A DNA stretch of 64,000 nt from Gemmatimonadota bacterium (GTDB taxonomy: Bacteria; Gemmatimonadota; Gemmatimonadetes; Gemmatimonadales; Gemmatimonadaceae). A program made the translations under genes and the position numbers. The stretch is taken from contig JAPLKS010000022.1 in NCBI GenBank assembly GCA_026387915.1, positions 186,001 through 250,000 on the forward strand, in the 5' to 3' direction. Shown here in pieces: positions 57,825 through 63,262 of this stretch. The notes beneath the pieces were generated by a model. That model searched no databases. It had not been told where the DNA came from and saw nothing but the letters and a program-made list of their open reading frames with translations. How positions within the stretch are numbered: the first letter of the stretch is position 1; each line of letters opens with the position of its first letter.

Positions 57825-57850
57825 GCGGTTCTACTTGAACCGTCTACCGT
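57818..57850. terminator. Bidirectional hairpin over two convergent stop codons
   Basis: ACGGTAG and CGGTTC pair with GAACCG and CTACCGT, 13 bp plus one G-T pair and a 5-nt loop. It contains the last bases of the cyclophilin gene and of the lyase gene on the other strand, 19 bp apart. Confidence 0.65.
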
Positions 57851-59049
57851 GCACTGCCTACTTGCAGTAGCAGCTCCGCCGCCTCGAGCGCCGCGCTCAA
57901 ATCCGTCCACAATGCCGAAGGATCTTCAAGCCCCACGCTGAGCCGCAGCATGCCGGGAGTGACGCCCCCTTCTGCTTGGCCTTCCGCGTTCACTACACGG
58001 TGCGTGAGTCCAGCCGGATGTTGAATCAACGAGTCCGCTGATCCAAGGCTCACCGCCGGCGTGATCACCTTCACGGCGCGCATCACTTCCGCGGCCGCGT
58101 CAAATCCTCCGGCCATCTCAAAGGCGATCATCGTACCCGGCCCGCGCATTTGACGGCCGATGAGATGACGCGGATCGTTGCCAGGGAGCGACGGGAAGAA
58201 CACGCGCGAAATCGAAGGGTGCGCCGCCAGTAGATCGGCGAGCGTCACCGCGCCTGCCTGCATCGCGCGCACGCGCACCGGCAAGGTCTGGAGTCCACGA
58301 TGCAGCAAGTAGGCGGCGAGCGGATGCAACACCGCCCCCGTCAGAATGCGTACCACACGCAACTGCTTCGCCCATTCCTCGGTGCACGCAATGACGCCGG
58401 CCATCACGTCGCCGTGCCCGCCAATGAATTTGGTGGCGCTGTGGAGCGACATCACCGCGCCATGCGCGAGCGGTTGCTGCAGCACCGGCGTGGCAAAGGT
58501 CGAGTCGACGAGCACGGGCACACGCCCCGCCTGTTGCGCAATATCGGCAATGTCGAGCAGTTCAATGGTCGGATTCGCCGGCGTTTCAATCACGACGAGC
58601 GCCGTATCGGCGCGCACATGATCACGCACGGTGCTCGCGGTGGCCCAGCTGACATCGAGATGCAACAGGCCGCTCGCGAGGAGATGGTCGGTGCCACCGT
58701 AGAGCGGACGCACCGCGACGATGTGCCGCTTGCCCGTCATCGTGGCAGCGAGCAGCGCAGCGGTGACCGCCGCCATCCCCGATCCAAAGCTCACCGCATC
58801 GTCGGCCTGCTCGAGCTGCGCAAAGGCGCGCTCAAAGCGGTCCACCGTGGGGTTGGCGAGGCGCGCGTAGATGTTGTTGCTCTCAGGACGCTCGCCACGG
58901 AGCATCGCGTCGATATTGGCGGTGCCTTCGGCCAGCTCCGGAATCGGATAGGTCGTCGAGAGATCGAGCGGGGCGGCATGCACCCCCATCGCGCGGAAAT
59001 CTTCGCGTCCGGCGTGCACGGCAAGCGTATCGATATCTTGATATTTCAT
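57844..59049 (-). CDS. Cys/Met-metabolism PLP enzyme (cystathionine gamma-synthase/lyase or methionine gamma-lyase type)
   Basis: 401 aa from ATG 59049 with AGGA six nt upstream. K207 in SLHSATKFIGGHGD is the PLP lysine; D182 in LVDSTFATP, Y61-A-R63 and SGMAAVTAAL bind the cofactor. Length and motifs are standard for the family. Which reaction (gamma-synthase, gamma-lyase, beta-lyase) cannot be read from motifs. A divergent Lrp-type regulator starts 82 bp away; such pairs usually mean control of this lyase by an amino acid such as methionine or cysteine. Confidence 0.92.
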   Translation of the reverse strand: MKYQDIDTLAVHAGREDFRAMGVHAAPLDLSTTYPIPELAEGTANIDAMLRGERPESNNIYARLANPTVDRFERAFAQLEQADDAVSFGSGMAAVTAALLAATMTGKRHIVAVRPLYGGTDHLLASGLLHLDVSWATASTVRDHVRADTALVVIETPANPTIELLDIADIAQQAGRVPVLVDSTFATPVLQQPLAHGAVMSLHSATKFIGGHGDVMAGVIACTEEWAKQLRVVRILTGAVLHPLAAYLLHRGLQTLPVRVRAMQAGAVTLADLLAAHPSISRVFFPSLPGNDPRHLIGRQMRGPGTMIAFEMAGGFDAAAEVMRAVKVITPAVSLGSADSLIQHPAGLTHRVVNAEGQAEGGVTPGMLRLSVGLEDPSALWTDLSAALEAAELLLQVGSAR

Positions 59050-59068
59050 CGAATCCTGTCCGGTTAGG

Positions 59069-59098
59069 TTGCTATATACAGTATCTCCTTCGTATAGT
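59069..59098 (+). promoter_or_regulatory. Promoter for the Lrp-type regulator
   Basis: TTGCTA (59069-59074) and TATAGT (59093-59098) stand 18 bp apart. Transcription would start about 27 nt before ATG 59132. It overlaps the divergent promoter below, so bound Lrp would affect both. Confidence 0.5.
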
Positions 59099-59109
59099 TG
59101 TTCTGTCAA
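59080..59109 (-). promoter_or_regulatory. Promoter for the Cys/Met lyase gene
   Basis: On the minus strand a perfect TTGACA (59109-59104) and GATACT (59085-59080) stand 18 bp apart, 30 bp before the lyase start codon at 59049. Confidence 0.5.
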
Positions 59110-59131
59110 ACGAATGTTTTTCGGAGCAGAC

Positions 59132-59599
59132 ATGGCAATAGACACCCTCGACCGAATCGATCGCGAGATACTCGCCGCCCTGGCGAATAATGCTCGGCTC
59201 TCCAACAAAGAGCTCGCCGCGCAGGTGGGGTTGGCCCCCTCCAGCTGCCACGAACGGGTGAAACGCCTGCTCCAGTCGGGAGTGCTGCGCGGCTTTCACG
59301 CCGACATCGACCCCGCCGCGCTCGGCGTGAACCTGCAGGCCATGATCTCGGTGCGGATGCGCACGCACTCGCGAGAGAACTACGATCACTTCCGCGCGTA
59401 TGTACTCGCGCTGCCGGAAGTGGCGGCCGTGTATCACACCTCAGGCGAGAATGACTTTCTCGTGCATGTGCTGGTGCGCGACGCCGAGCATTTGAAAAAC
59501 TTCGCGATTGACGCGATCATCACGCGGCCTGAGGTTGGGCACATTGAGACCGGGTTGATCTTTGAGCACGTGAGGGCGTGGAAAGGGTCCTACACCTGA
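59132..59599 (+). CDS. Lrp/AsnC-family transcriptional regulator
   Basis: 155 aa from ATG 59132 with CGGAG seven nt upstream. The start LDRIDREILAALANNARLSNKELA and the following LAPSSCHERVKRL form the winged-helix DNA-binding part. The C-terminal RAM domain (about 70-150) binds an amino acid and drives oligomer formation; HTSGENDFLVHVLV is its core. Divergent from the Cys/Met lyase, which is its probable target. Confidence 0.93.
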   Translation: MAIDTLDRIDREILAALANNARLSNKELAAQVGLAPSSCHERVKRLLQSGVLRGFHADIDPAALGVNLQAMISVRMRTHSRENYDHFRAYVLALPEVAAVYHTSGENDFLVHVLVRDAEHLKNFAIDAIITRPEVGHIETGLIFEHVRAWKGSYT

Positions 59600-59686: not shown

Positions 59687-60253
59687 TTATCTCCCCACCC
59701 CCAGTGCATCCGCCATCCGATTGATGTAGTTGAACCACGACGCAATCATCGTGATCTGCAGGATGCCGGTATCATCAAAGCCGTGCGCGCGCAAACCATC
59801 CAGCGTCGCCGGCGACACCCGCGTGGCGTCGACGGTGATCTCCACTGCGTACGCGAGCATCGCCCGCTCTTTGTCGCTCATGGGCGCCGTCTGCCATTCG
59901 CCGCGCAGTAGCGCGTCGGGAAGCGTGTCGTCCTGTACCACCATACGCAGAAACTCTGCGTGCGATTCCATTCAATACCGGCAGTTGTTCGTGACGGAGA
60001 CTACCGTCGCAATCATCTCATGATGCCGGCGTTCGAGTGGGAGTTCGGGCGCCATGGCGGCGCCGAATGTCGAGAAGGCGTGCTGCAACGCGGCCGGAAT
60101 CAGGCTGTGCGACGCCAGAATCTTTTCTTCCGCGGGCACGCTGGGCTGCGTCCCCTGCCCATACTCCTTGGGGTAGAGCTTGGCCTGGGCCAGAAAGGCA
60201 TCGCGCAACGGGCCGGGGGTCGCCATTGGGTCGAACGTCTTGATCCAAGTCAT
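59687..60253 (-). CDS. AhpD-like/carboxymuconolactone-decarboxylase-family selenoprotein (in-frame TGA = Sec94)
   Basis: 188 aa if TGA 59974-59972 is read as selenocysteine. The two halves are in one frame: MTWIKTFDP... to NNCRY, then TGA, then MESHAEFLR to the end. AhpD/CMD proteins carry E-x11-C-x2-C-x3-H; here E79, C91, U94 and H98 keep exactly that spacing (E118, C130, C133, H137 in mycobacterial AhpD). Thus Sec replaces the catalytic Cys. A hairpin suited as bacterial SECIS follows the TGA. The full length is normal for the peroxidase-related branch. The product would reduce peroxides with a thiol partner. A Cys-to-stop mutation is the rival explanation, but decay elsewhere is not seen. 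The gene is divergent from the gamma-glutamyltransferase gene, 99 bp away. Confidence 0.8.
59945..59971 (-). promoter_or_regulatory. Candidate bacterial SECIS element after the TGA
   Basis: In the mRNA, 10 nt after the UGA, ACGCAGA pairs with UCUGCGU around a GUU loop (7-bp stem). The loop starts 17 nt after the codon triplet and its first base is G, as in the known bSECIS consensus (loop 3-14 nt, G among its first two bases, 16-37 nt from the UGA). It lies inside the coding region, as bacterial SECIS elements do. Confidence 0.7.
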
Positions 60254-60352: not shown

Positions 60353-63262
60353 GTGTCTCTCGTTCTCGCCGCCTTTCTGCTGCAGGCCGCCAGTGCTGAC
60401 TCCACCGCACTGCACGCTGTTCGCACCCCCACCTACGCGCCCGACGGACGGGTAGCGGTGAGTAGCGATGGCGGACTGTTTTTGCGCCGCACATCAGGGG
60501 CGTGGACGCGTCTCTCCACGAGCAGCGCCTGGGACCGTGACCCCGCCTTCACGCGCGACGGCTCGGCGATCGTCTTCTCGTCTGATCGCTCGGGCAACTG
60601 GGATCTCTGGCGACTGCGCGTCACGGCCGACGGCGCCGCCGGAGAACCCGAACGTGTGACCACCTCCGCTGCCGACGAAAGCGCGCCCACGACCGCGCCC
60701 GACGGCAGCATTGCATTTGTGCGGGGACGTGGCGCATCGGCTCGCATCTGGATTCGCGCCACCGATGGCAACGAACGCCGACTCGACGATCGTGAGAACA
60801 CGCAAACCGCGCCGCGCTTTTCTCCCGATGGTCAGCGTGTGGCGTATATCGTGACGAGCGAGAATGTGCGCCGCGTGATCGTGCGCGGCGTGCAGAACGG
60901 ACGCGAGACCACCGTTAACGCCGATCGGGCCGCCGAGCGACTTGCGTGGTCGCCGACGGGTGATCGCGTGGCGTTCTCGACGCGCGCCGGCGTGTTTGTG
61001 TCGCCCGCCGACGGACGCTACACGAACATTGCCTCTACACATCACGGCGACATCGCCTGGTCGCCCGACGGCGCGACGGTCGCCATTGCCGAATACGACG
61101 AGCCATCCGTTGGCTATAACGGCGACCCGGACCGACTCGGTGAGCGTGTGGCCGCTGAGCGATTTGGCGCCACCGACAAACTGTTCTTCGTCGCTGCACC
61201 AGTGGCGCCCGACGCGAACCTCGCGGAACAACACGTGACGGCCGCCGACGATCGTGCCGCGCGAAACGCCGCGGCCTATGATCGGGTGTGGGAGCGTTCC
61301 ACCAAGCTGTACTTCACCGCCGCGGATGCAACAACGCGCCGCGCACAGTGGGATGCGGTCCGCACCAAGCATCGCGGGGAAGCTGTTGCCGCGCGAAACG
61401 ACGACGAGCTCCAGCGCGCCATCTGGGCGATGCTCCGCGAGCGGCCGCCGCTCAAGGCCACCGCCACCGGCCGCGCTGCCGTGAGCAGTGCCCACCCCGT
61501 GGCCACCGAAGCGGGGCTCGAGATGTTCCGTGCCGGCGGCAACGCTGTAGATGCGGCCGTCGCGGTGAGTTTTGCACTAGGCGTGGTAGAACCCGATGCC
61601 AGTGGCGTAGGCGGCTACGGTGAAATGGTGGTCACGCTCAAGGGGATGGAACGGCCGACACTCATTGAGTTCATGAGTCGTGTGCCGGAAGCGGCGTCGC
61701 TCGCCAATACCTCACTGTTGCAGAATGGTCGATATCCGAGTGATGGCCCAGCATTGGTGAATGTGCCGGGGACGGTGGCCGGGATGTATCTCGCGTGGAA
61801 GAGCTACGGCAGTCACAAGCTCGAGTGGAAAGATCTCATTGCGCCTGCCCTACGAGCTGCGCGCAATGGCTACGCGGTGAGCGAAGGACTCGCCACCACA
61901 CTGGCCACCGAGCGTGAGCACTACGCCAAGTATGAGGGAAGTCGTGCGCTGTTCTTCAAGGACGGCCACCCGCTCGTGGCTGGTGACACCGTGCGCAACA
62001 GCGGACTCGCGTGGGTGCTCGAACAAATCGCTGCCAACGGCGCTGACGGATTTTACAAAGGCGCCGTGGCGGACAAATGGGTGACCGACCTTCGCGCGCA
62101 CGGCAACGTGATGACCGGCAACGATCTCTCGCGCTATTACGCCGTGGAACGCGCGCCGGTGGCCGGGCAATATCGCGGCTTCACCCTCTGGTCGAGCGCT
62201 CCACCCGTGAGTGGTGGCGCCGAACTCTCGGCGCGGATGAACTTGATGGAACAGTTCGCCACGCCCAAACCATACCCCGACGACGCGGCTACACTCAACG
62301 CCGCGCTCACCGCGTGGTATTTGGTGCCGAGTTCGCGCAATAAGATTGCGGACCCAGGAATGTGGCCCATAGATGTGGCGAGCATTATCAATCGTGACAC
62401 GGCTGTTGCGCGCTGGAAGTGCTACGACGCCGAACGAGCGATTCGCCCGTCGGATTTCCGCGGCGACACGCTCGCCTGCTTGGCCCGCAACACAAAGACG
62501 GACAGCGCGAAATCCGCACCGGAGCGCAACGATGCACCGGACGCGGCGCTCGCTGAATGCGCCGCGCCCGACCACGCGCGCGAAATCAGCGCGTGCCATT
62601 CTGCTGGCACCACAGCATTCACCGTGGCAGACAACGACGGCAATGTCGTGGCCGTCACGCAAACGCTCGGCACGTGGGGCGGAAATTTTTACGTCACGCC
62701 GGGGCTTGGCTTTCTCTCAAACGACAAACTCACGAGCTACGGCACCGACTCCACGCAATACGGACACCGTCTGCCATTCGCACGACACGGCAGCACACTC
62801 GCACCGACCATCGTCTTCAAGGGAAAGAAGCCTGTGTTCGCCGTTGGTGCGGCGGGCAACTCGTGGATTACGTCGGCGGTGTTTCAGGCGCTGCTGGGTG
62901 CGCTCGACTATGGCTACGATGCGCAACGTGCGCTCGAACTTCCGCGCTTTCTCCCCGGAGGGGCGGGCGGCGGAGCGGGTGGTGGTGGACGCGCGGGCGG
63001 AGCGGGAGGTGGTGGACGCGCAGGCGGAGCGGGCGGTCGTGCCGCGGCGGCGGCCACCGAGGCGCGCTACAATATTCAAATTGAAGATGGCTTCTCGCCG
63101 GACGTCATCAAACGTCTCCGCGAACTCGGCTACGACTTTACCGTGGTGTCGCTGCGTGGTGAACTGCGCGAGGGCTACGGCGCGGCCATCACGATTGACG
63201 GCAAGAAAGTGACGGCCGGTGCGGACCCGCGGCGCGCTGGCGCCGCGGGTGCCGTGCCGTGA
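60353..63262 (+). CDS. TolB-like beta-propeller + gamma-glutamyltransferase fusion
   Basis: 969 aa, GTG start. A short signal (ending AASA) precedes propeller repeats (about 25-270: RFSPDGQRVAYIV, IAWSPDGATVAIAEY). A linker leads to a gamma-glutamyltransferase domain (about 375-960). AVSSAHPVATEAGLEMFRAGG and DASGVGGYG are family landmarks. The autoproteolysis site is G752/T753 in AGTTAFTVADNDGN, so Thr753 would be nucleophile and new N-terminus of the small subunit. A Gly/Ala/Arg repeat follows near the C-terminus. The enzyme would cleave gamma-glutamyl amides such as glutathione in the periplasm. The propeller addition and the repeat are unusual. Confidence 0.9.
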   Translation: MSLVLAAFLLQAASADSTALHAVRTPTYAPDGRVAVSSDGGLFLRRTSGAWTRLSTSSAWDRDPAFTRDGSAIVFSSDRSGNWDLWRLRVTADGAAGEPERVTTSAADESAPTTAPDGSIAFVRGRGASARIWIRATDGNERRLDDRENTQTAPRFSPDGQRVAYIVTSENVRRVIVRGVQNGRETTVNADRAAERLAWSPTGDRVAFSTRAGVFVSPADGRYTNIASTHHGDIAWSPDGATVAIAEYDEPSVGYNGDPDRLGERVAAERFGATDKLFFVAAPVAPDANLAEQHVTAADDRAARNAAAYDRVWERSTKLYFTAADATTRRAQWDAVRTKHRGEAVAARNDDELQRAIWAMLRERPPLKATATGRAAVSSAHPVATEAGLEMFRAGGNAVDAAVAVSFALGVVEPDASGVGGYGEMVVTLKGMERPTLIEFMSRVPEAASLANTSLLQNGRYPSDGPALVNVPGTVAGMYLAWKSYGSHKLEWKDLIAPALRAARNGYAVSEGLATTLATEREHYAKYEGSRALFFKDGHPLVAGDTVRNSGLAWVLEQIAANGADGFYKGAVADKWVTDLRAHGNVMTGNDLSRYYAVERAPVAGQYRGFTLWSSAPPVSGGAELSARMNLMEQFATPKPYPDDAATLNAALTAWYLVPSSRNKIADPGMWPIDVASIINRDTAVARWKCYDAERAIRPSDFRGDTLACLARNTKTDSAKSAPERNDAPDAALAECAAPDHAREISACHSAGTTAFTVADNDGNVVAVTQTLGTWGGNFYVTPGLGFLSNDKLTSYGTDSTQYGHRLPFARHGSTLAPTIVFKGKKPVFAVGAAGNSWITSAVFQALLGALDYGYDAQRALELPRFLPGGAGGGAGGGGRAGGAGGGGRAGGAGGRAAAAATEARYNIQIEDGFSPDVIKRLRELGYDFTVVSLRGELREGYGAAITIDGKKVTAGADPRRAGAAGAVP
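62969..63043 (+). repeat. 27-bp tandem repeat encoding Gly/Ala/Arg segment
   Basis: Two full units (62969-62995, 62996-63022) and a partial third begin GGCGGAGCGGG. They encode the GGAGGGGRA-type repeats in the gamma-glutamyltransferase gene. Copy number could change by slippage without a frameshift, because the unit is a multiple of three. Confidence 0.75.

Follow-up and report, generated by a model that had tools for sequence, protein, structure and literature searches.

The "AhpD-like protein, TIGR01926, CxxU" is listed among the selenoprotein families of a 2026 review, with MCB9421940.1 as an example (PMC13188914), and AhpD-like 1 (COG2128, CxxU) was counted 299 times in the GOS survey (PMC2398784). 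In the AhpD of M. tuberculosis, the relay residues are Glu118, Cys130, His132, Cys133 and His137 (PMC3141380). The gene described here lies on the minus strand at 59687..60253 of a 64-kb window, the whole stretch of Gemmatimonadota DNA that was analysed, and is predicted to encode 188 residues plus a stop with selenocysteine (Sec) at residue 94. With a probability of about 97%, judged from the sequence evidence, the gene product is a TIGR01926 selenoenzyme with the AhpD/carboxymuconolactone-decarboxylase fold, in which SelB would decode UGA 94 as Sec at a hairpin and a selenolate mechanism would operate with C91 as the resolving residue. As TIGR01926 CxxU proteins are already listed (PMC13188914, PMC2398784), the protein adds one more member to a known selenoprotein family.

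Translation with TGA as Sec runs from an ATG at 60253 to the stop at 59689-59687 on the minus strand and contains a single TGA, codon 94 (59972..59974, minus strand). The first-pass annotation had left out the strand, and the plus strand of 59687-60253 is not the gene; its numbering of E79, C91, position 94 and H98 is correct on the minus-strand translation. It had also described one frame across the TGA in a gene that is undamaged elsewhere, and this holds, as the frame is otherwise intact and the TIGR01926 (peroxidase-related) match of the read-through product (101.5 bits, cut-off 81.8, E 4.3e-29) spans the TGA. The same product matches PF02627 in the HMM search (40.8 bits, cut-off 23, E 2.2e-10), and both the start (MTWI) and the end (DALGVGR) of the protein are kept in the aligned orthologues. 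In the list of open reading frames predicted through the standard code, the gene is split in two, as the first-pass annotation had expected: a 147-aa ORF is terminated by the TGA, and a 94-aa ORF meets it at this codon and continues downstream, so that under automatic annotation the enzyme would be missed or labelled a pseudogene. On sequence grounds, a chance reading frame is ruled out by the family matches across the TGA together with approximately 25 distinct orthologous proteins that have a TGA at the same aligned codon.

Upstream and divergent from the selenoprotein gene is a gene for a TolB-like propeller fused to gamma-glutamyltranspeptidase (window 60353-63262). Within the genus, five members keep the two genes side by side, an arrangement that was not found outside it. 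The neighbourhood offers no functional hint beyond the genus. Downstream, at window 57844-59599, a Cys/Met metabolism PLP enzyme gene (PF01053) is divergent from that of an Lrp/AsnC regulator.

The active site of the predicted protein has the spacing E-x11-C-x-Y-U-x3-H, which is that of Glu36/Cys48/Tyr50/Cys51/His55 in PA0269. On the minus strand, the codon of the proton-relay residue Glu79 (60017..60019) corresponds in spacing to Glu36 of PA0269 and Glu118 of M. tuberculosis AhpD, that of the putative resolving Cys91 (59981..59983) to Cys48 and Cys130, and that of the relay residue His98 (59960..59962) to His55 and His137. Glu79 and His98 are invariant in the orthologue alignment (A1), and Cys91 is present in all Sec orthologues. 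The E-C-C-H relay of AhpD is found at its proper spacing as E79, C91, U94 and H98, with Y93, and with Sec in place of the second cysteine. As the spacing of E79, C91, Y93, U94 and H98 agrees with that of both reference proteins, the TGA falls at the second active-site cysteine; the proposal that it occupies exactly the catalytic position of C-x2-C is thus borne out by the relay spacing and by the Cys codons found there in relatives.

In sequence, the protein is nearest to the solved structures 2oyo, 2pfx and 6k40. An AlphaFold model of the protein has a mean pLDDT of 79.6, with a core above 90 and low confidence in the N-terminal 60 residues, and a Foldseek comparison of this predicted fold to the PDB placed it with the AhpD-like peroxidase-related group (2pfx, 2prr, 6k40 and 3c1l, TM ~0.7). 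By analogy with AhpD chemistry, the U94 selenolate, activated by the E79/Y93/H98 relay, would act as the nucleophile on a hydroperoxide, its most likely substrate, or on another oxidised substrate; C91 would then resolve U94 as a selenenylsulfide, which would in turn be reduced by a thiol reductant. We infer peroxidase activity only by this analogy.

The protein may instead be a selenoprotein that does not reduce peroxides, serving as an AhpD-type thiol-disulfide adaptor for AhpC or as a Bmp8-like reductase of some other substrate. AhpD is described in PMC3141380 as an essential adaptor to AhpC, the CMD-fold debrominase Bmp8 (6ohj, 6ohi) is also among the fold matches with TM-scores of 0.65-0.68, and sequence does not determine the substrate. 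However, the closest matches in both sequence and structure are peroxidase-related AhpD-like proteins with the same five-residue relay, and PA0269, which has this relay, reduced H2O2, though slowly. We regard a role other than peroxide reduction as a serious alternative that is nevertheless somewhat improbable.

Much less room is left for the possibility that the UGA is decoded as an amino acid other than Sec, whether through a general reassignment such as TGA to tryptophan or through near-cognate read-through. An open frame by itself cannot tell which residue is inserted, but the source genome (3.58 Mb, a draft of 23 contigs, estimated to be 100% complete) contains a complete set of selenocysteine genes. 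A profile search of its contigs detected selA at C13:224523-225839 (531.8 bits, cut-off 267.9), a full-length selB at C13:6434-8254 (336.1 bits over its frame, cut-off 242.25) whose product has a GTPase and C-terminal SelB winged-helix domains, and selD at C9:225472-226392 (380 bits, cut-off 125). The tRNA-Sec gene is at C9:225272-225364 (83 bits, gathering score 47) and was called by ARAGORN as tRNA-SeC with anticodon TCA. It adjoins selD on the same strand (C9:225272-226392). The search for selA, selB, selD and tRNA-Sec proposed in the first-pass annotation therefore found all four in the same genome. In addition, genes of the 64-kb window end at TGA or have no internal TGA, as is normal, position 94 aligns with a catalytic cysteine and never with tryptophan, and the hairpin after the codon is conserved at the DNA level. 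Taken with these observations, decoding as another amino acid is very unlikely.

The formate dehydrogenase alpha gene of the same genome (FdhA; C9:57633-59501, minus strand) has one in-frame TGA in the context CNRTUHAPSVVGL, the classical Sec site of the formate dehydrogenase family. Selenium would be used in at least two proteins of this freshwater or soil type of Gemmatimonadota bacterium.

In the preferred reading, in which UGA 94 specifies Sec, SelB carrying Sec-tRNA(Sec) would bind a hairpin just 3' of codon 94. The candidate SECIS is the apical hairpin ACGCAGA-GUU-UCUGCGU (59945..59961, minus strand), identified from its fold, from the conservation of an 18-mer and from the bSECIS model. 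This model specifies a loop of 3-9 nt with G in the first two loop positions, a stem of 4-16 bp, a spacing of 16-37 nt and a minimum free energy (MFE) of -7.5 kcal/mol or lower (PMC13188914). The hairpin after codon 94 agrees with the model on every point, with a 7-bp stem and a 3-nt loop GUU (G first, then U) 17 nt after the UGA, and the 18-mer CACGCAGAGTTTCTGCGT has a folding energy of -8.5 kcal/mol. The observed hairpin codons tie for the lowest energy among 1152 synonymous versions. Compared with dinucleotide shuffles of this 55-nt segment, the hairpin has no greater stability (z -0.04). As the folding energy is unremarkable in this comparison, the case for a SECIS rests on conservation. 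Folding of a 31-nt segment of E. coli fdhF alone by MFE did not recover its known hairpin.

Conservation at this site is at the level of nucleotides. The 18-mer is identical in all 32 Sec records (four of them duplicates), which come from two phyla, and is present in no Cys record. Across 15 distinct Sec genes, the hairpin codons CAC GCA GAG TTT CTG CGT are invariant; these genes have 57 invariant degenerate residues, a single codon is used at eight of them, and six of the eight are the consecutive hairpin codons, while the remaining 51 residues use a single codon at only two positions. Elsewhere in the Sec genes, GCA, TTT and CGT are uncommon choices, accounting for 11%, 23% and 11%, respectively, of the codons used for the same amino acid. 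The hairpin codons vary in the Cys orthologues, and residue 99 is Arg or Lys there, as opposed to Ala (GCA) in all Sec forms.

The comparison across genomes bears directly on whether the TGA is a real stop in a gene broken by nonsense mutation and now decaying. The standard bacterial code does treat TGA as a stop, and under this explanation the 3' piece would be an orphan ORF. Across the bacterial family, 179 genomes gave 15 matches (E <=1e-15), and a sample of 395 genomes from the phylum gave 19 orthologues (E <=1e-35); every one of them has exactly one TGA. A second, independent collection yielded TGA orthologues in Gemmatimonadota and Acidobacteriota, and Cys orthologues in Armatimonadota and Planctomycetota. 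A TGA shared by some 25 orthologous proteins of several Gemmatimonadota families (two orders' worth) and of Acidobacteriota, with no other in-frame stop in any of them, argues against a pseudogene. In the codon alignment, every Sec form has TGA in the column of codon 94, and the four Cys forms, L051, L053 and L054 from Armatimonadota and L056 from Planctomycetota, have TGT or TGC there. Cysteine at position 94 of relatives, for which the first-pass annotation had advised looking, is therefore found in other phyla. No TGC or TGT was found at codon 94 in close orthologues within the phylum across the 179 and 395 genomes searched, and with no such close relative, decay is excluded.

Selection gives the same answer. 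By simple counting of the Nei-Gojobori type, comparison with the orthologue L029 gave dN/dS of 0.135/1.00 for the part 5' of the TGA and 0.119/0.87 for the part 3' of it, and the values for four more distant orthologues are likewise similar on the two sides. This pattern indicates that the segment 3' of the TGA is translated and constrained; with purifying selection undiminished there, a decaying gene is highly improbable. A one-base sequencing or assembly error that creates the TGA has a negligible chance, for although the source is a draft assembly of 23 contigs, the same TGA is kept in independently assembled genomes down to approximately 55% protein identity. These comparisons leave practically no room for decay, sequencing error or ordinary termination, and the initial call of a probable selenoprotein is supported by the machinery, the conserved TGA, the Cys orthologues, the selection and the hairpin.

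The presence of selA was also surveyed across the bacterial family, where it was found in 105 of the 179 genomes. All nine well-assembled carriers from the family search have it, which is mild, supporting evidence only, because selA is in any case present in 70 of 105 comparable genomes; the two carriers with no selA match are only 78% and 81% complete. With selA in 105 of the 179 genomes, Sec use is not exceptional in this family. The expectation that the gene would extend selenocysteine use in such bacteria was overstated, both for this reason and because the CxxU type of TIGR01926 is already listed (PMC13188914). In a partial literature search, no paper reporting this gene family in Gemmatimonadota was found.

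The Sec and Cys forms differ in more than one residue. All Sec forms have N-x-C-x-Y-U, a Cx2U arrangement of C91 and U94, whereas the Cys orthologues have N-C-T-F/S-Y-C in alignment A1, a Cx3C arrangement in which the partner cysteine is C90, residue 91 is threonine and C94 takes the place of Sec. This difference is a small new point. The Cys orthologues group together in the tree (support 100/98), and their group falls inside the Sec forms with moderate support only and with a long-branched outgroup, a hint that Sec may have changed to Cys as the partner residue moved. A tentative reading, somewhat less likely than not, is that the two forms use different resolving residues and that Sec/Cys exchange is coupled to the shift of the partner cysteine, possibly because the SECIS and selenenylsulfide geometry place different demands on the site. 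If the Cys group does lie inside the Sec forms, it would represent a loss of Sec. The Sec clade, with a hairpin frozen at the nucleotide level in two phyla, and its matched Cys clade provide a clean natural set for Sec/Cys replacement.

Among the closest known systems is "AhpD-like 1" (TIGR01926/COG2128), with which the Gemmatimonadota protein shares the HMM family above cut-off, a CxxU motif with Sec second and a UGA in an open frame. Members of the Gemmatimonadota clade are 54-99% identical to each other and share only approximately 35% identity with another TIGR01926 Sec subfamily of these bacteria. This second, distant subfamily (L037-L042), from the same bacterial family, also has CxxU (NxCxYUxxHH) and, 3' of the TGA, a hairpin-like CACGGAG...CTCCGT of its own; one genome (G032) carries both subfamilies. 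The NCBI (seleno)protein models NF041238 (AhpD_rel_CFYUT) and NF053654 (GroundWater_YciW) have the same fold core and a CxxU-type site, but the protein scores 50.4 bits against a cut-off of 175 for the former and 29.8 bits against a cut-off of 310 for the latter, outside both families. M. tuberculosis AhpD (1knc, 1gu9) has its Glu118, Cys130, Cys133 and His137 relay at the same spacing, and differs in having Cys in place of Sec, His132 in place of Tyr93 and a different chain arrangement, with weak Foldseek matches (E 0.1-0.5). Finally, PA0269, 2oyo, 2prr and 6k40 have in common with the Gemmatimonadota protein the AhpD fold and an identical Glu-Cys-Tyr-Cys-His spacing, and have Cys where it would carry Sec.
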